In this document: in pieces, positions 22,525 to 31,106 of the stretch
Numbering within the stretch: the first letter of the stretch is position 1
Layout of the letters: every line of letters starts with the position of its first letter
DNA from: Roseospira navarrensis
GTDB taxonomy: Bacteria; Pseudomonadota; Alphaproteobacteria; Rhodospirillales; Rhodospirillaceae
NCBI RefSeq assembly: GCF_009601025.1
Contig: NZ_WIVE01000042.1
Coordinates: 1 to 37,001, forward strand
Length of the DNA stretch: 37,001 bases
Direction: 5' to 3'
Notes under the pieces: generated by a model
The model's input: only the letters and a program-made list of their open reading frames with translations
Database searches by the model: none
What the model was told of the DNA's origin: nothing
Program-made: the position numbers and the translations under genes

Positions 22525-22622
22525 AGCGTCTGGGGGCTGGTTCGGTGGTTCCGTTGGCGCAAGCACAACTTTTGGGGATGCGCCTCTGTGATCTCCCACA
22601 TTGCGAAAGGCTGACAGTCCCC

Positions 22623-24668
22623 ATGTCCGGTGCGCCGCCCTTCACCGATCCCAGCCGTGGACTGGCCGCCGCGCCCGTCCTGGAGGCGCTGTTCCATCAA
22701 AACGCGTGTCCGGTGGCGTTTGTCGGGGCCGATCTGGTCATGATCCGGGCCAACGAGACGTTCGCCGCGTTTCTCGGACGGCCCGCCGAGACCCTGGCCG
22801 GGCAGCGCGTGGATGCGCTCGGCCTGCCGGACAGCCTGCTGTGGATGATGGACGAGACGGTCGACGCCGGGCGTCCGGCCGACCTGGCCGACGTCCCCAT
22901 CGGCGCGGCGGGCGGGGAGTCGCCGCGCAGCGCTGCCGTGTGCACCCTTCGGCTGGAGCCGGTGCGCGACGGTGAGGGGCGCTGTTGCGGCGTGCTCCTT
23001 CTGGGGACGGACGTGACGACTCGCCGCCGAACCGCCCGGGCGCTGGCCGAGAAGGAGGCGGAATACCGCCTGTTGGCGGAACAGCAGTCGGCCCTGATGG
23101 TCAAGATCGATGCCGAGGGCCGGTTCCTCTACGTCAACCCGGCCTACTGCGAGACCTTCGGGCGCACGTCGGACGAGCTGATCGGTCAGACCTTCATGCC
23201 GCTGGTGCACGAGGAGGACCGGGCCGCCACGGCCGCGGCCATGGCGCGGCTGGTCGATCCGCCCCACAGCGTCCACCTGGAGCAGCGCGCCTGGACCGTC
23301 CACGGCTGGCGCTGGCTGGCGTGGCAGGACACCGCTCTGGTGGACGAGGCCGGCCGGATTCAGGCCATCATCGGCGTGGCCCACGACATCACTGAGCAGC
23401 GCACGGCGCGGGCGCGCGAGCAGCAGAGCCTGGAGAACCTGCGGGCGTTCTTCACGCTGTCCCAGGACCTGTTGCTGGTGGTGGATGGGCGCGGACGGGT
23501 GCGGGAGATGAACGACGCCGTGACCGACCGTCTGGGGTGGCGGCGCGCCGACCTGCTCGGCCGGTCCGTGTTCCGCCTGCTGGCCCGCCGCAGCCGCGCC
23601 GACGGCCGTGCGCGCATCCGCGCCATTGCCTCGGGCCGGGCGCGCAGCGTGCAGTTCCTGCTGCGCCACCGGGAGGGCGCGCCGGTGCTGGTGGAAACCC
23701 GGGTGGTGGCCGGCACGTGGGACGATGCGCCCGCACTGTTCACCTCCAGCCGGGACCTGTCCGAGCTGTCCCTGCTGCGCGAAAAGTTCGAGCGGGTGTT
23801 CCTGGACAACGCCACCCTGATGGCGATCACCGATCCCCAGACGGGCCGGTTCCTGGATGTCAACAATGCGTTCCTGCGCCTGCTCGACATGGACCGCGCG
23901 GACGTCATCGGACGCACCACGGTCGAGCTGGGGTTCTTCCCGAACGCGGAAGGCCGCCTGGAAATTCTGCGCGACGCAGATGACCGCGCCCGCACCCATC
24001 CGATCGAGATGGGCGTCAAGCTGCCCGACGGGCGCAACATGATCTGCGAATGGACGACGGCGCTCATCACCAGCGGCGGCACGTCCTACCGCCTGACCAT
24101 GCTCAACGACATCTCGCGCCAGCATGAGCTTCTGGTGGAACTGGAATACCAGGCCAACCACGATTCGCTGACCGGGGCCGTCAACCGCCAGCGGGGCGCG
24201 CGGCATCTGGATCATGAGGTGTTGCGCAGCCGGCGGCAGGGCGCGCCGCTGTCGGTCATCCTGGCGGATGTGGATCACTTCAAGGGGATCAACGACCGCC
24301 ACGGGCACGGCGTCGGAGACCGGGTGCTGCAGGAGATCGTGCGCGTGCTCACCGATCGTCTGCGGGAGACCGACATCCTGGCCCGGTGGGGCGGCGAGGA
24401 GTTCGTGATTCTGCTGCCCGATACCGACCGGGACGGCGCGGTGCGCCTGGCGGAGGCGCTGCGGGCAGGGGTGGAGAGTGCGGCGTTCGCGACCGGCGAT
24501 CGTGTGACCCTGAGCCTTGGCGCCGCCCTGCTGCAGGATGGGGAGACCGCCGAAAGCGTGATCGACCGGGCCGACCGGGCGCTGTACCAGGCCAAGCGGG
24601 GCGGCCGGAACCGCGTCGAGGTGGACGGCCAGCCGGTCCATGAGGCGTGTCCCGAGGGCCAGTCCTGA
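22623..24668 (+). CDS. Diguanylate cyclase with N-terminal PAS array
   Basis: A 681-residue sensor that would make cyclic di-GMP from two GTP. There are about four PAS/PAC segments: 15-135, 140-255 (GRFLYVNPAYCETFGRTSDELIG), 270-380 (GRVREMNDAVTDRLGWRRADLLG) and 390-500 (GRFLDVNNAFLRLLDMDRADVIG). A GGDEF domain follows, starting ANHDSLTGAVNR. The active-site motif is GGEEF at 590-594, and RETD exactly five residues before it is an intact inhibitory I-site. There is no membrane helix, so it is cytoplasmic. The ATG at 22623 (MSGAPPF) is chosen. Two further in-frame starts lie upstream and the ribosome-binding sites are weak for all. No phosphodiesterase domain is present. Its position beside glycan genes is suggestive only. 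Confidence 0.92.
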   Translation: MSGAPPFTDPSRGLAAAPVLEALFHQNACPVAFVGADLVMIRANETFAAFLGRPAETLAGQRVDALGLPDSLLWMMDETVDAGRPADLADVPIGAAGGESPRSAAVCTLRLEPVRDGEGRCCGVLLLGTDVTTRRRTARALAEKEAEYRLLAEQQSALMVKIDAEGRFLYVNPAYCETFGRTSDELIGQTFMPLVHEEDRAATAAAMARLVDPPHSVHLEQRAWTVHGWRWLAWQDTALVDEAGRIQAIIGVAHDITEQRTARAREQQSLENLRAFFTLSQDLLLVVDGRGRVREMNDAVTDRLGWRRADLLGRSVFRLLARRSRADGRARIRAIASGRARSVQFLLRHREGAPVLVETRVVAGTWDDAPALFTSSRDLSELSLLREKFERVFLDNATLMAITDPQTGRFLDVNNAFLRLLDMDRADVIGRTTVELGFFPNAEGRLEILRDADDRARTHPIEMGVKLPDGRNMICEWTTALITSGGTSYRLTMLNDISRQHELLVELEYQANHDSLTGAVNRQRGARHLDHEVLRSRRQGAPLSVILADVDHFKGINDRHGHGVGDRVLQEIVRVLTDRLRETDILARWGGEEFVILLPDTDRDGAVRLAEALRAGVESAAFATGDRVTLSLGAALLQDGETAESVIDRADRALYQAKRGGRNRVEVDGQPVHEACPEGQS

Positions 24669-24777: not shown

Positions 24778-24871
24778 TGCCGGGCGGGAGTTGCACTCCC
24801 GCCCGGAGCGCTTTCATCCCCATCCATTGGGCGAAACGGTCCGGACGGGGCTGCAAGCCCCGTCCGGCATG
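24778..24871. repeat. Dispersed two-hairpin intergenic repeat, copy B
   Basis: This is the second copy of the block at 16512-16604. Here both stems are perfect: CCGGGCGGGAGT-TGC-ACTCCCGCCCGG and CCGGACGGGGCT-TGCA-AGCCCCGTCCGG. It lies about 110 bp after the diguanylate cyclase stop and could act as its 3'-end structure. The differences between copies fall partly in the stems, so copy A folds less perfectly. Confidence 0.92.
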
Positions 24872-24940
24872 AAGAAGGCCGTTCTTAGCGCTTGGGTCCG
24901 ATGCCGGCGCCGCGACGAGCCGGTGAGCGCCCGTGTCTCG

Positions 24941-24968
24941 TATAATTGATATTGCGAATTATTCGCAA
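24941..24968 (+). promoter_or_regulatory. Consensus -10 box with Fur-like palindromic operator
   Basis: TATAAT at 24941-24946 is a perfect -10. TTGCGAAT-T-ATTCGCAA at 24952-24968 is a perfect 8-1-8 palindrome centred about 14 bases downstream, the position where a repressor would cover the transcription start. The 7-1-7 form with an AAT-N-ATT core is what Fur-family sites look like. No good -35 is seen 17 bases upstream. The surrounding sequence is GC-rich, so this AT-rich patch stands out. Confidence 0.6.
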
Positions 24969-25122
24969 GTGACGTACCGTCGCGCGGGTCAGGGCTGGTG
25001 CGGCCCCGGTCTCGCGGCGCCTGTCTGTGCGCCAACCGGCCTGCCGCGCCGGTCCGGGTCGCGAAACCTTGACCACCTTCCGGCGGCCGGGCCCGTCTCC
25101 CCCGCCCGGTCGCCGGTTTTTT
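24953..25122 (+). ncRNA. Candidate iron-responsive small RNA
   Basis: A transcript starting near 24953 from the promoter with the Fur-like site would run about 170 nt to a strong terminator at 25080-25122. It would fold into GGCGC/GCGCC at 25016-25033 and ACCGGC/GCCGGT at 25035-25053. It then leaves an unpaired segment, 25054-25079, containing ACCTTGACCACCTT, which is complementary to AGG-rich ribosome-binding sites. The terminator hairpin follows. No reading frame with a ribosome-binding site is obvious inside it. The layout is that of a trans-acting sRNA of the RyhB/PrrF functional class, without claiming homology. The alternative is an attenuated leader for the gene at 25168. Confidence 0.5.
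25080..25122 (+). terminator. Rho-independent terminator
   Basis: CCGGCGGCCGGGC (25080-25092) pairs with GCCCGGTCGCCGG (25104-25116) over 13 base pairs, one of them a G-U wobble, with an 11-base loop and six T directly after the stem. It stands 45 bases before the start codon at 25168 and about 410 bases after the diguanylate cyclase stop, so it most naturally ends a separate short transcript. Confidence 0.85.
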
Positions 25123-25167
25123 CAACCCGCGCCGAGGCCGCGCCCCAAGATCACAGAGATCCCCGCC

Positions 25168-25686
25168 ATGTCCCGGACCGTGATTCCCTTTCCCGCCGGC
25201 CCTGTCGCGGCGGGGTCCCCTGGTGAAACCCTGCTGGAGGCCGCGCGCACGTGGCGGCGGTTCCCCGGCTGCCCCGCGCCGTTTCCCGATGGGGTGGTGC
25301 GCCAGCTCGGCGCCGCCGGCCTGCTGGGCGCGTTGATGCCGCTCGATGCGTTGATGGTGGTGCTGGCCGCGCGGGGTCCGGCGGCCCGGCCCCTGGCCCT
25401 GGGCTCGGTGGGCACCCCGGCCGACACCCAGGACGCCCGCCTGCTCGCCGGGGCGCTCGCCCAGGCGGTGCGGGACGGCGCCGCCGGCGACGAGGCCGTG
25501 GAGCGGCTCGCCCGTCGCCTGGACCTCGCCGGTCCGGCCCTGCTGGACAGGGCCCTGCGGCGACTGGGCCGGGCGGTCCGTCCGCGGGTCGCGCGGGGGG
25601 CCTGGCCCGAGGCCGGACGCGGCCTGCCGGTGGATGTGGTCGAGGACATCGGGACGGAGACGGCGCCGCCCCACGCCGCGGAGTGA
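25168..25686 (+). CDS. Hypothetical protein, 172 residues
   Basis: I recognise no family. The predicted protein begins MSRTVIPFPAGPVAAG, is alanine-, leucine- and arginine-rich, and has alternating helical stretches (ARLLAGALAQAVRDGA, AVERLARRLDLAGPALLDRALRRLGRA). It lacks a signal peptide, cysteines or recognisable catalytic motifs. A hydrophobic segment, LGAAGLLGALMPLDALMVVLAA, lies near residues 48-69 and might be a membrane helix or a buried helix. The ATG at 25168 has only a weak AGAG upstream, and the codon use resembles neighbouring genes. It lies 45 bp downstream of a strong terminator, so either it has its own promoter there or its expression depends on readthrough. It could be a small helical cytoplasmic protein. 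Confidence 0.6.
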   Translation: MSRTVIPFPAGPVAAGSPGETLLEAARTWRRFPGCPAPFPDGVVRQLGAAGLLGALMPLDALMVVLAARGPAARPLALGSVGTPADTQDARLLAGALAQAVRDGAAGDEAVERLARRLDLAGPALLDRALRRLGRAVRPRVARGAWPEAGRGLPVDVVEDIGTETAPPHAAE

Positions 25687-26068: not shown

Positions 26069-27661
26069 ATGCACCCGACCCGTAGGTCCGTCCTTGCCCG
26101 CAGTGGCGCCGCCGCCGTGGCGGCCCTGACCGGGTTCCCCGCCATCCTGCCCCGCGCCGCCCTCGGCAACACGACCTGGGGCGAGGTGCCGTCCGGCCTG
26201 ATGCCGGCGGGCTTCACGCCCAGCCGAATCCTGGAGATCCACTGCTACGGCGCGCCGTCGATCTGGGAGAATTTCTGGGTGCGCGGGCCGTCGTCCAATC
26301 CCGACTGGCGCGGCTTCGACGCCGAGATGGCGGCCACGGACTGGCTCTGTCCCGCCACCGCATCGGAGCGCCCCACCTCGGAAGGCGTGGTCTCGTTCGG
26401 TCAGGACAGCCTGGGCAACGACATCTTCTGGGGACCGGCGACCCGGCCCCTTTGGGACTCCGGGATCATGGACCGCACCCGCATGGTGGTGCAGAAGCAC
26501 GACTCGCCCGCGATTCCGATCCACGAGGCCGCCATTCCCTACGCCATCACCGGCTCGCGTCTGGGCACGCCGCGGCACGCCGGCATGGGCGCGGCCTTCC
26601 AGCATCGCGGCATGACGCTGGACCCGGGCCGGACCATCCCCCATGCCTATGTGCTCTCGCCCAACAACATCGCCCAGTTCGGCATGACGGACACGGCGGC
26701 GCTGGCCACCGGCACGCATCCCGGCGGATCACGACCGCTGATGGTCAAGATCGGCGGCGCCAGCGACCTGGAGGCGCGGCTCTCCCGCCCCGGCCTGTCG
26801 CCCGCGCGCGACGACCTGCTGGACGCCCTGCGCGGGCAGTACCGCGACCGCCTGCGCCGGCATGGCGCCATGGTGCCGCCGGTGCGCTCGGCCCAGTTCA
26901 CCGCCTACGATGCCGCCGTGGAGTCGCTCTATAACGCGCCGGGGCTGGTGAGCCTGTTCTCGGGCGGGGTGCTGGACGTGGACACCATGCCCTATTGCCT
27001 GAAGCAGGCCGGCGACGCCGACCCCGCCGATGTGGCGAACCGCCCGGCCACGGCCATCGATCTGGCCCGCCGCCTGCTGACCGATCCGGGCAACCCCGCG
27101 CGGCACGTGCTGATCGCCGACGGCGGCGTGGAGAAGATCGCCGGCGGCAGCCAGCCACCCTATGACACCCACGCGAGCGTGGTCAGTTCGGCCTTCGAGC
27201 AGGTGCGGGCCACCAACGCCAACCTGTTCAACATGCTCTATCACCTGTCCCAGGCCATCGATCCCACCGGCACCGATCCGACGCGGATCAACCTGGATGA
27301 CACCATGATCGTCATCAACGCCGAGTTCGGCCGCACGCCCCGGCGCACCAGTTACCAGGGCAACGACCGGGGCCGCGAGCACTGGCCGGCGGGCTATGTG
27401 GCGATCCTGATCGGCGGCCCGATCACGAGCCGCGCGATCGTCGGCGGCATGACCAGCAACCCGGGCGACAGCTCGGACGGCACGGCGCCCGACGGCGCCT
27501 GGTACAAGCCGACCGACATCCGGGGCACCCTGCTGATGGCCGGCGGCGTCTGGCCGTTCGAAAGCGAGCTGTTCGGCACGCTGGACTTCGGGCCGCAAGT
27601 GAACATCGGCAGCGAGACCGGCAACGCCCAGACCATCGCCACCGATATCCTCGGGCTTTGA
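26069..27661 (+). CDS. Tat-exported DUF1501 family protein
   Basis: A 530-residue DUF1501 protein, a branch of the alkaline phosphatase/sulfatase-like superfamily with unknown substrate. The N-terminus TRRSVLARSGAAAVAALTGFPAI is a twin-arginine signal (Arg5-Arg6) with a cleavage region near residue 33, so the folded protein is exported. The late motif VINAEFGRTPRR matches the EFGRTP box of the family, and HWPAGYVAILIGGPI and a GTLLMAGG segment follow as usual. DUF1501 genes normally pair with DUF1549/DUF1553- or DUF1800-type genes, and the next gene fits that habit. The ATG at 26069 follows a purine-rich GGGGGAGGCC stretch. Length is in the family's range. Confidence 0.88.
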   Translation: MHPTRRSVLARSGAAAVAALTGFPAILPRAALGNTTWGEVPSGLMPAGFTPSRILEIHCYGAPSIWENFWVRGPSSNPDWRGFDAEMAATDWLCPATASERPTSEGVVSFGQDSLGNDIFWGPATRPLWDSGIMDRTRMVVQKHDSPAIPIHEAAIPYAITGSRLGTPRHAGMGAAFQHRGMTLDPGRTIPHAYVLSPNNIAQFGMTDTAALATGTHPGGSRPLMVKIGGASDLEARLSRPGLSPARDDLLDALRGQYRDRLRRHGAMVPPVRSAQFTAYDAAVESLYNAPGLVSLFSGGVLDVDTMPYCLKQAGDADPADVANRPATAIDLARRLLTDPGNPARHVLIADGGVEKIAGGSQPPYDTHASVVSSAFEQVRATNANLFNMLYHLSQAIDPTGTDPTRINLDDTMIVINAEFGRTPRRTSYQGNDRGREHWPAGYVAILIGGPITSRAIVGGMTSNPGDSSDGTAPDGAWYKPTDIRGTLLMAGGVWPFESELFGTLDFGPQVNIGSETGNAQTIATDILGL

Positions 27662-27703
27662 GCCGCCGGACCCAGCCCGCCCGGCTGTCCGCCCTGCTTT
27701 TCC

Positions 27704-27777
27704 TGATCGGCGATGACCCGGACTCGTCCGTTTCATCGCCTCCGCCGCTTCGCGGCGCCGGCCCAGTCGGGCCGGTA
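27704..27777. repeat. Dispersed repeat, full copy upstream of the ankyrin-tailed gene
   Basis: Aligned with 18018-18090, it keeps the CATCGCCTCCGCCGC core, GCCGC-TTC-GCGGC and CCGGCCC-AGTC-GGGCCGG. It fills the 142-bp space between the DUF1501 gene and the next start. The conserved stems with changed loops suggest the hairpins matter for the element's spread or function. Confidence 0.85.
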
Positions 27778-27803
27778 TTAGACCGCACGACACGGGGGCC
27801 ACG

Positions 27804-30800
27804 ATGTCGCAGATCGCTCCTTCGACCCACCGCCGTCCGGCTCTCCTGGCCGCGGTGTTCCTGCTGGGGCTGGCCCTCGGCCTCGGCCTGCCGACATCCT
27901 CGGCGCAGGCTCAGGCGGCGGCCTTCCCCGAGCCGATCCCCGACGACAACGGCGACTATGCCTTCGCGCGCGAGGTCGTGCCCCTGCTGCTGGGCCGCAA
28001 GCCGCGCGGTGCTCTGGAGGTCAAGCTGCTCGGCGACATCGCCGCGCTGGAAGGGCGCGCCGCGATGGTCAAGATGCTGACCCGCCGCGAGGAGTTCTAT
28101 ATCCACTGGTCGCGGCTGTTGCTCGACAACCTTCAGGTCCAGCGCGCCGGGCAGCGGCGGCAGGCCAGTGCGTGCTTCGCCGAGCCCATGCGGCGGACAT
28201 CGGACGGCACACCCGTGTTCGACGGCGGATCGCTGGCCCGCTTCATCGCTGCGCAGGATCCGGCCACCGCCAGCGAGCCCGTGGGCGGCGACGGCTTCAA
28301 CATGGCCGACGTGATCCTCTCCGCGTTGCAGGAAGACGACCTGTCGGTGGTCATGCGGGCCCATCTGTTCTCCATGGCGATGGCCCGAGGTCGGTTCACC
28401 TCGCCGGAACGGGCCCGCGCCACCGTGGGCACCACCTTCACCCACGTCTACCTGACCCGTTCCATCGGCTGCCTGGCCTGCCACAACGAGACCTTTTCCG
28501 TCACCGGCCCGGGCTCGGGCTGGGACCGGCTGTACGCGCCGCCCATCAACCTGTCGGGCGCCCTGTTCGGGGCGGCGAGCGGCGGCATGCCGACCAACAC
28601 CTTCAACCTGTTCCGCTCCGATCAGGCGGAGACCGGCGGCACCGGGCTGCGCCCCTGGAACATCGACGCCAGTTGCGTGACCGACCAGCAGGCCAGCGAC
28701 CGGGTGGGCTATCGCGCCCTGTCGCCCAACGGCGGGGCCGGGGTCGCCTTCGCCGGGCTATCGGGCGACGACCTCGGCGTGGTCGCGCTGGAGGACACGC
28801 TGCGCCAGGGCATCGAGAGCTACCGAACGGACGGCCTGCTGCTGACGCCCTCGGGCGGGGATGCCCCGCCCATGCCCGATGACGCGGCGGTGGCCTTCGC
28901 CTATCAGGTCGCCATGACCGTCGTGGACCATGTGTGGGAGGACCTGACCGGCGAGCGCCTGACCATCGCGCTGTACTTCCCGCGCAACGAGGCCCAGCGC
29001 GATGCCCTGTGGAACCTGACCGAAAACGTGTTTCTGGCCGACGACTGGTCCCTGAGCAGCCTGCTCGCCACCGTGCTGACCAGCGGCTACACCAACCGGC
29101 GCGCGCCCGACAACACGGTGAACGACACCTATGTGCTGCCCATGATCCTGGATCCGTGGGTGGCCAAGGACCCGCGCCTGCCCGATTCGGCCTTCGACGA
29201 TCCCAATGACCCGCGCCTGTTCCACAACGGGCAGGGCGAGGTGATCCACCGGCACGCGCCGCTGACCCTGCTCACCATGGTGTCGCGGGCGCTGGACTGG
29301 CCGGATCCGAACCCGTACGGCGGCTCCGGGTATCCCTCGTCGTCGTTCATGCGGGATATCGGCCAGTTCTGGTCCCAGGATCGCACCGGCACACGGGGTG
29401 TCGATTTCCAGTCCCTGCTGGCGTGGGAGGCCACCCTCGGCACCTGCGAGAAACCGCCCGGGGTCTCCACCGACTGGATCGACCGCCTGATGGACGCCAT
29501 CGCGGTCTATGACGCCGAGAACCCCTATCGGCCGTTGATCCTGGAAGACGTCATCCTGACCCTGAAGGACTGGGTGATCCAGCAAGGGTGGATCGAGGAC
29601 ACGGCCGCGCAGGACACGGGACTGGCGGAGATCGCGGCCCTGAGCGCCGTGTTCAGCGCGGACACCAGCCTGACCGTGCCGATGACCGCGCCCACCACCC
29701 TGTTCACGCCCGCCGACCTGGAGGGCAAGCTGCGCGAGGTCTGCGGCGCATTGCTGCAGTCGCCGCAGTTCATGCTGACCGGCATTTCCGCGGCCCGCCC
29801 GCTGGAGATTCCGCGCCTGCGGGTCTGCAACGAGCCCGACGATTGCTCGTACCAGGAGATGTGCGAGAGCTACGCCGACACCCTCGCCGACGCCAGCCGC
29901 TACATCGACTGCCTGGAGGACGACGTCGTGCCCGGCAGCGGCCCGGGTGTGGCGGACCGGGGCGATCCGTGCCGCGTGACGGTGTCCGTCGGGGGCCATC
30001 AAGTGCTTCGGGTGCTGAACATCTGCGAGTTTGTGCCGAATCCGCTCATCGAGTGCCTGCGGGGCGACCTGCCGGGGCTGGGCGGCGGCGGCGTGCCGGG
30101 TCCGATCCGCCTGGGCAACGACTGCCGGCCGGACATTCCCCGCTGCGATCCGCGCTGTTCCATCGGGGCGCAGGCGGGCGGCGGTCTGCCCGGGTTGGAG
30201 GGCGGCCCCAGGGATGGCCCCGGGGGCCTGCTGGGCGGCGGCGAACTGGGCCTGCCCTGCTGCGGCGGCGGGGGCATGCGGCCCTTCGACCGCCTGGATC
30301 CGGAGACCCTGCTCGGCTGGCTGGAGGGCGCCGAGATCCTGACCGCGCGCGGGGCCGGCATCCTGCCGCGCGGCAAGGACGTGGTGCTGCCGCTGGAGCC
30401 CGGCACGCGCCTGTCCTTCGGCGATATCCTCGTGCTGCCGCCCGAGGCCACCGTGGAGGCGCGGGGTCCGGCGGGCCGGGTCGTGCTGGGCGGGGCCGGT
30501 GGTGGCCCCGAGGGGATGCGGCCGGGCCTGCGGCCCAAGGACCTGTCGCTGCTGGACGCCGTCCGGCGTGGCGACGGTCCGGCGGTCACGGCCCTCCTGA
30601 AGGACGGCGCCAACCCCCTGAGCGTGGACCGCGAGGGCCGCACGGCCCTGACCATCGCCGCCGAGCGCCGCGACACCCGCATCCTGCGCGAGTTGCTGCA
30701 GCGCGGAACGTCGATCGGCCGGCCGGATGCCCGGGGGCTGACCGCGTTCGAGGCGGCGCGCCTCGCCCGCAATCCCGAGGCCGCCCGCCTGCTGGAGCGC

Positions 30801-31106
30801 CGCGGCGCGATCGCGGAGCGGTTCGAGCGGGAGCGCCCCGGCAAGGGTGTGCCGCCGACCCTGCTGATGGTCACCGGCCCGTCCGCCGTCAAGGCGCCGC
30901 CGGTGCGCGACCGACGCCTGATGACCACGGGGCAGGCGCGCCTGCGGCTGGCCGAGGGCGCCTATCGGGTCAAGCCGCCCTCGCTCGACGCCCGCATGGG
31001 TCTGCTGAAGGAATACGGCTGGATGGGCCCGAGCCTGACGGGCGAGCAGGCGGAGCGCCTGAACCAGACCCTGCAGCGCCTGGGGCCCAGCGACGGGGTG
31101 TATTGA
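27804..31106 (+). CDS. Large exported DUF1549-like protein with CXXCH motif and ankyrin repeats
   Basis: A 1100-residue protein with a classic signal peptide at about 10-37 (RRPALLAAVFLLGLALGLGL, cleavage after AQA). The region 45-700 resembles DUF1549/DUF1553-type proteins: WSRLLLDNLQVQR, then a single c-type heme motif CLACH (Cys223, Cys226, His227), a WNLTENVFLADDWSLSSLLA segment and LLQSPQFMLTG near 660. Residues 690-840 form a cysteine-rich, then glycine/proline-rich linker with many CX3-9C spacings. Residues 914-1005 are about three ankyrin repeats (LLDAVRRGDGPAVTALLKDG, DREGRTALTIAAERRDTRIL, DARGLTAFEAARLARNPEAA). It follows the DUF1501 gene by 142 bp. It is probably a periplasmic or surface redox/binding protein, but function is unknown. 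The ankyrin fusion is unusual. Confidence 0.8.
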   Translation: MSQIAPSTHRRPALLAAVFLLGLALGLGLPTSSAQAQAAAFPEPIPDDNGDYAFAREVVPLLLGRKPRGALEVKLLGDIAALEGRAAMVKMLTRREEFYIHWSRLLLDNLQVQRAGQRRQASACFAEPMRRTSDGTPVFDGGSLARFIAAQDPATASEPVGGDGFNMADVILSALQEDDLSVVMRAHLFSMAMARGRFTSPERARATVGTTFTHVYLTRSIGCLACHNETFSVTGPGSGWDRLYAPPINLSGALFGAASGGMPTNTFNLFRSDQAETGGTGLRPWNIDASCVTDQQASDRVGYRALSPNGGAGVAFAGLSGDDLGVVALEDTLRQGIESYRTDGLLLTPSGGDAPPMPDDAAVAFAYQVAMTVVDHVWEDLTGERLTIALYFPRNEAQRDALWNLTENVFLADDWSLSSLLATVLTSGYTNRRAPDNTVNDTYVLPMILDPWVAKDPRLPDSAFDDPNDPRLFHNGQGEVIHRHAPLTLLTMVSRALDWPDPNPYGGSGYPSSSFMRDIGQFWSQDRTGTRGVDFQSLLAWEATLGTCEKPPGVSTDWIDRLMDAIAVYDAENPYRPLILEDVILTLKDWVIQQGWIEDTAAQDTGLAEIAALSAVFSADTSLTVPMTAPTTLFTPADLEGKLREVCGALLQSPQFMLTGISAARPLEIPRLRVCNEPDDCSYQEMCESYADTLADASRYIDCLEDDVVPGSGPGVADRGDPCRVTVSVGGHQVLRVLNICEFVPNPLIECLRGDLPGLGGGGVPGPIRLGNDCRPDIPRCDPRCSIGAQAGGGLPGLEGGPRDGPGGLLGGGELGLPCCGGGGMRPFDRLDPETLLGWLEGAEILTARGAGILPRGKDVVLPLEPGTRLSFGDILVLPPEATVEARGPAGRVVLGGAGGGPEGMRPGLRPKDLSLLDAVRRGDGPAVTALLKDGANPLSVDREGRTALTIAAERRDTRILRELLQRGTSIGRPDARGLTAFEAARLARNPEAARLLERRGAIAERFERERPGKGVPPTLLMVTGPSAVKAPPVRDRRLMTTGQARLRLAEGAYRVKPPSLDARMGLLKEYGWMGPSLTGEQAERLNQTLQRLGPSDGVY

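Follow-up and report, generated by a model that had tools for sequence, protein, structure and literature searches.

A candidate Fur-repressed small RNA encoded in a gene leader of Roseospira navarrensis and its close relatives

Between a PAS-GGDEF gene (22545-24668) and the gene P0001 (25168-25686) of the purple bacterium Roseospira navarrensis lies a stretch that, judging from its sequence, probably holds an RNA gene switched on at low iron. We think it rather likely that this RNA belongs to a family of Fur-repressed sRNAs that are encoded in leaders and probably act in trans. The window, that is, the whole stretch of DNA analysed (37,001 nucleotides), is the entire contig C134 of a 4.43-Mb genome in 197 contigs. 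A sequence-only reading of it had proposed an unlabelled iron-regulated sRNA at this place. Comparison bears out the operator, the promoter spacing, the terminator and a conserved, covarying RNA behind an iron-type operator, which four genomes of a single genus carry at six homologous loci in all; the transcript, the binding of Fur and the response to iron are what we infer from this arrangement. Of the traits of the Fur-controlled sRNA class, a Fur-type operator at the promoter can be read directly in the letters; of a discrete short transcript, the letters show the terminator and the conservation. The features of the locus are listed below.

24941-24946, plus strand: TATAAT named in the sequence-only reading, not conserved there and probably not the -10 element
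24952-24968, no strand assigned: Fur-type operator TTGCGAATTATTCGCAA, a perfect 8-1-8 palindrome
24952-24957, plus strand: -35 element TTGCGA, the first part of the operator, from ten aligned promoters
24975-24980, plus strand: -10 element TACCGT, with TA at the same offset in 10 of 10 aligned promoters
24988-25122, plus strand: predicted RNA of about 135 nt, its start deduced from the -10 element
24992-25055, plus strand: 5' hairpin, longer in the window than in the other five copies, with a stem that covaries in those five
25060-25081, plus strand: linker CGCGAAACCTTGACCACCTTCC, partly unpaired, a candidate pairing seed conserved across copies
25080-25122, plus strand: intrinsic terminator, a 13-pair stem (25080-25116) plus T6 (25117-25122), from the fold and a shuffle test
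25168-25686, plus strand: P0001, 172 aa, starting 45 nt past the T run, with no Pfam or NCBIfam match

The perfect 17-bp palindrome singled out in the sequence-only reading is indeed present at 24952-24968, and the 17-mer with at most 3 mismatches occurs once in the window, where 0.01 occurrences would be expected. Perfect 8-1-8 palindromes of any sequence number 2 in the window against a mean of 2.1 in 60 shuffles, which is not above chance. Across the six genomes of the genus, the operator with at most 2 mismatches is found at 17 sites in five of them, and a reversed control pattern, searched in the same way in all six, gives zero sites. The boxes of Roseospira marina contig C32 and of a Rhodospira MAG lie outside this 2-mismatch limit.

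The position of the operator within the promoter was taken from ten promoters aligned on the box. This set is of our own choosing and comprises the promoters of the six RNA loci together with those of four P0001 homologues from outside the genus. The two Rhodospira trueperi copies in it are near duplicates; in one genome (G012) there were two candidate sites, and the one used has the lower score; and six promoters, those of R. marina C32, of the MAG and of the four homologues from outside, score just 11 or 12 of 16 to the box. In the alignment the palindrome begins with the -35 element (TTGCGA in 8/10), and a TA-initial -10 element follows at a spacing of 17 bp. TA stands at offset 23 from the box start in all ten promoters, the next highest count at another offset being 5, and the mean match to TATAAT at this offset is 4.2 of 6, as against 3.2 at the next best. 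The operator most likely covers the -35 element and the spacer; because of this placement, with the -10 element at 24975-24980, the RNA would start near 24988. The sequence-only reading, which put the palindrome over the expected start, misread the promoter. The perfect TATAAT that had been named as the promoter does exist at 24941-24946; as a -10 element it was rejected, being not conserved at that place, and a single TATAAT in the window, against 0.29 expected, is not above chance; TTGCGA-17 bp-TACCGT takes its role. The MAG box also has an upstream TATAAT, but at another distance. A block of the form YGTCYCRYA...TGMTA stands directly before TTGCGA in four of the six RNA promoters (24922-24951 in the window and the same place in L019, L032 and L028), and is perhaps a second regulatory site.

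The region 24953-25124 folds with a z-score of -4.28, and equal stability was reached in 1 of 200 shuffles. Two small hairpins had been described in the RNA; both fall in promoter DNA before the likely start, and that account missed the large hairpin at 24992-25055. The two ACCTT motifs reported with them do lie within 25060-25081, in a stretch said to be unpaired that is better described as a C-rich linker, just partly unpaired (54-76% on average). The 13-bp stem and six T were placed correctly, at 25080-25116 and 25117-25122. The window has one stem of at least 10 pairs followed by at least five T, and 60 shuffles gave none; a simple terminator scan with a loop limit of 8 reports nothing at 25080-25122, whose loop is longer. 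We rejected a leader peptide or small protein, as the short frames share no common peptide except in the two near-identical R. trueperi copies. No Rfam family reaches its gathering score anywhere in the window, and at E<=5 the six loci yield just six below-cut-off matches, the best at E 1.4; identity with RyhB, PrrF or another Rfam family was rejected for want of a covariance-model match.

When 60 related genomes were searched at the DNA level, six of them, counting the window's own, had matches. The congeners G004 and G005 match over linker and terminator; a match in G031 was set aside because it covers terminator-like sequence only, and first matches in G029 and G046 were left out of the locus reading. 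Five further copies were found upstream of P0001 homologues and around box matches, two in Rhodospira trueperi ATCC 700224, two in Roseospira marina DSM 15113 (G004) and one in the Rhodospira MAG. The six copies occupy four of the six genomes of the genus, and the genomes G001 and G003 have neither RNA copies nor P0001. The conserved unit consists of the box, 17 bp, the -10 element, the 5' hairpin, the linker (CGYGAAACC or close, then C-rich), the terminator and T4 to T7, and the predicted RNA is 95-135 nt long across the copies. Over the other five copies, pairing in the two stems amounts to 94.8% and drops to 31-50% when the stems are slid; 5 of 23 pairs have changed on both sides, and the covariation score was equalled in 1 of 500 shuffles. 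A covariance model, a check proposed together with the sequence-only reading, was built without the window and finds it at 44.8 bits, the next match in the window scoring 11.6; this recovery is partly dependent, as similarity to the window had first brought up two of the five sequences in the model.

Within the family, 17 of 73 genomes match the model at E<=0.1. When 28 family-wide matches were opened, the six copies had an upstream box of 11-16 of 16, and the other 22 reached at most 10. In the order (297 genomes), six genomes from other families match at E<=0.001, the best at 39.5 bits, and a box at the promoter position is absent in all six. Since a box-less match outside the family scores this high, the model score alone is not decisive. 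A wider spread was rejected, just the six copies having a box upstream and the six matches in other families being taken as chance. Among 15 loci opened around the box, a scan found a terminator within 300 nt solely at the three RNA loci.

In all six copies a same-strand gene lies 3' of the RNA, which is therefore also a leader. The window and R. marina C32 have P0001 in this position; the remaining four copies have a gene for a small membrane protein with a weak likeness to DUF4405. The gaps from T run to start codon are 25, 45, 53, 54, 61 and 164 nt, so that in most copies expression of the downstream gene must come from read-through or from a very short promoter. P0001 defines an unnamed protein family, with homologues in 8 of the 60 genomes when the window's own is counted: four within the genus and four outside. 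Because the four outside the genus stand close behind a Fur-type box (L035, L036, L037, L038), there without the RNA, P0001 is probably an iron-stress protein. The MAG P0001 has no box of at least 11 within 900 nt. Pfam and NCBIfam searches with eight aligned homologues gave one weak match (HMBD, E 0.032), and at the search sensitivity used no relatives were found in viral contigs or named genomes. Homologues of the small membrane protein occur in four genomes beyond the genus, and the 500 nt upstream of them contain no box of at least 11.

The neighbours of the box, named by Pfam, bear on its regulator. Fifteen of the 17 sites were opened as loci; of the remaining two, one belongs to the second R. 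trueperi RNA copy, covered by L032, and one lies 0.6 kb away from the ExbB-type site. Iron-uptake or iron-response genes adjoin the box at 5 of the 15: it precedes feoB at two sites, by 619 and 646 nt, and is found once each with a flavodoxin gene and a divergent periplasmic binding protein gene, with a TonB receptor gene and an AraC-type gene, and with a MotA/ExbB-type gene. Three of the 15 are RNA loci. The box precedes an ArsP_2 exporter at two and a DUF4198 protein at one, and four have no clear iron neighbour, namely L016, where Pfam gave no match, L026, with an epimerase-type gene, and L021 and L025, which the Pfam search left out. At L022 and L023, in two genomes, a 10TM ArsP_2 putative heavy-metal exporter stands directly behind the Fur-type box.

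Fur is the likely binder of this box, and control of the same RNA by Irr or another member of the Fur family seems to us improbable. The genome does encode Irr above its cut-offs, plus a weak third family member, whereas its Fur-like protein, which scores 130 bits to Pfam FUR, does not reach the cut-offs of the NCBIfam Fur models. The known Irr box, however, appears to differ from the box here, which counts against Irr control. Rhodospirillales are moreover described, in the available part of the source, as having kept Fur as the global iron regulator (PMC3751524). Far less credible still is the reading that hairpins and palindrome arose by chance in GC-rich DNA: 8-1-8 palindromes of any sequence are to be expected and box-less model matches occur elsewhere at up to 39.5 bits, yet the comparison contradicts it, as box, fixed spacing, linker and terminator recur jointly in six loci with covariation.

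With sufficient iron, Fur would sit on the palindrome, over the -35 element and spacer, and block the promoter; when iron is short, the promoter would fire near 24988. Most polymerase would then stop at 25117-25122 and free an RNA made up of 5' hairpin, C-rich linker and terminator hairpin, some would read through the terminator and supply the next gene's protein, and the freed RNA would probably pair with mRNAs via its linker. A possible but doubtful alternative is that the RNA acts in cis only, as a leader whose terminator dampens an iron-regulated downstream gene and whose freed product is functionless. Such a leader would suit the same-strand gene in six of six copies, at most 61 nt from the T run in five, as well as the four P0001 homologues outside the genus that stand close behind a box without the RNA. 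It sits poorly with the structure, since no competing antiterminator was found in any of the six copies and forbidding the terminator costs 27-35 kcal/mol, with the same RNA preceding two unrelated genes, and with a linker conserved beyond the terminator's needs. In one R. trueperi copy (L032), P0001 from 2748 is broken by in-frame stops, and the RNA and the small gene upstream are intact, which we counted for the sRNA reading.

For an sRNA acting through its linker, pairing with the start regions of iron-protein genes had been suggested as a check. Against the starts of sodB, sdhC, leuC and acnA in four species (acnA not scored in the MAG), the linker did no better than against control starts. 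The best of 23 linker-gene scores ranked at 0.14 (sodB with one R. marina linker) and the rest at 0.30 or worse, relative to control starts (n = 62, 30, 28 and 13) that were picked by a composition rule and are hence noisy. Because this four-gene test gave no signal, action in trans is something we continue to infer. A near-perfect complement as target (at most 3 mismatches in 22) was rejected as well: besides the RNA, the sole match is the linker's own sequence, rather than a complement, in a gene, which we take to be a fasciclin-domain gene.

Gamma- and betaproteobacteria and Firmicutes are known to have Fur-controlled sRNAs that spare iron. Like the window RNA, RyhB, PrrF and NrrF combine a Fur-type promoter box with an intrinsic terminator (PMC3751524; PMC11005374); unlike that class, the window RNA is without an Rfam match and doubles as a gene leader. 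FsrA of Bacillus and IsrR of Staphylococcus are described, in the available excerpts, as Fur-controlled with C-rich pairing regions, those of FsrA reportedly binding Shine-Dalgarno sequences (PMC9410917). The C-rich linker resembles these seeds, although both sRNAs belong to a different phylum with no homology shown to the window RNA, for which target pairing is unsupported. Among alphaproteobacteria, RusT of Caulobacter crescentus is an iron-starvation sRNA of 118 nt; as far as the published features in the accessible text go, it is set apart by its control under NtrYX rather than Fur, its four stem-loops and its position between lolA and xth (PMC11005374). Also in Caulobacter, CC0682-sRNA1-CC0681-sRNA2 is an iron- and Fur-repressed operon in which the authors speculate on two sRNAs among small genes, just a large transcript having been detected there according to the available part of the paper (PMC3751524). 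Among the matches listed in the open-licence literature, we found no report of a Fur-controlled sRNA in Rhodospirillales, and the available excerpts of three papers contain no such sRNA and no comparable box sequence (PMC7685610; PMC3251581; PMC9368920). The family appears to be new and undescribed, of a known kind, with a leader-linked layout. With its operator, its linker and its homologues from named type strains, the candidate allows the question to be put to the test in phototrophic Rhodospirillales, and the leader layout common to the copies would let one promoter give both sRNA and mRNA.

The wider surroundings of the copies differ. The R. marina C32 copy lies just after feoB, and one R. 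trueperi copy is near hutX and hutW. The other R. trueperi copy and that on R. marina C9 face a divergent small gene with a gene for a metal P-type ATPase behind it, and the copy in the MAG is divergent to a similar small gene. These divergent small-gene regions are L031 4617-7499, L045 3364-6501 and L034 1655-2101 (minus strand), and the ATPase present at two of them has a weak HMA_2 match; a small gene and P-type ATPase divergent to the RNA may resemble the layout of ferrosome (fez) loci. No recognised iron gene lies near the copy in the window, which counts against the iron reading. Between its GGDEF gene and the box, two near-perfect GC-rich hairpins could be read by eye at about 24779-24868, with arms of about 10-11 bp, loops around TGCA and no T runs. 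On the other side, 26069-31106 encodes a DUF1501 protein and then an 1100-aa protein with C-terminal ankyrin repeats.
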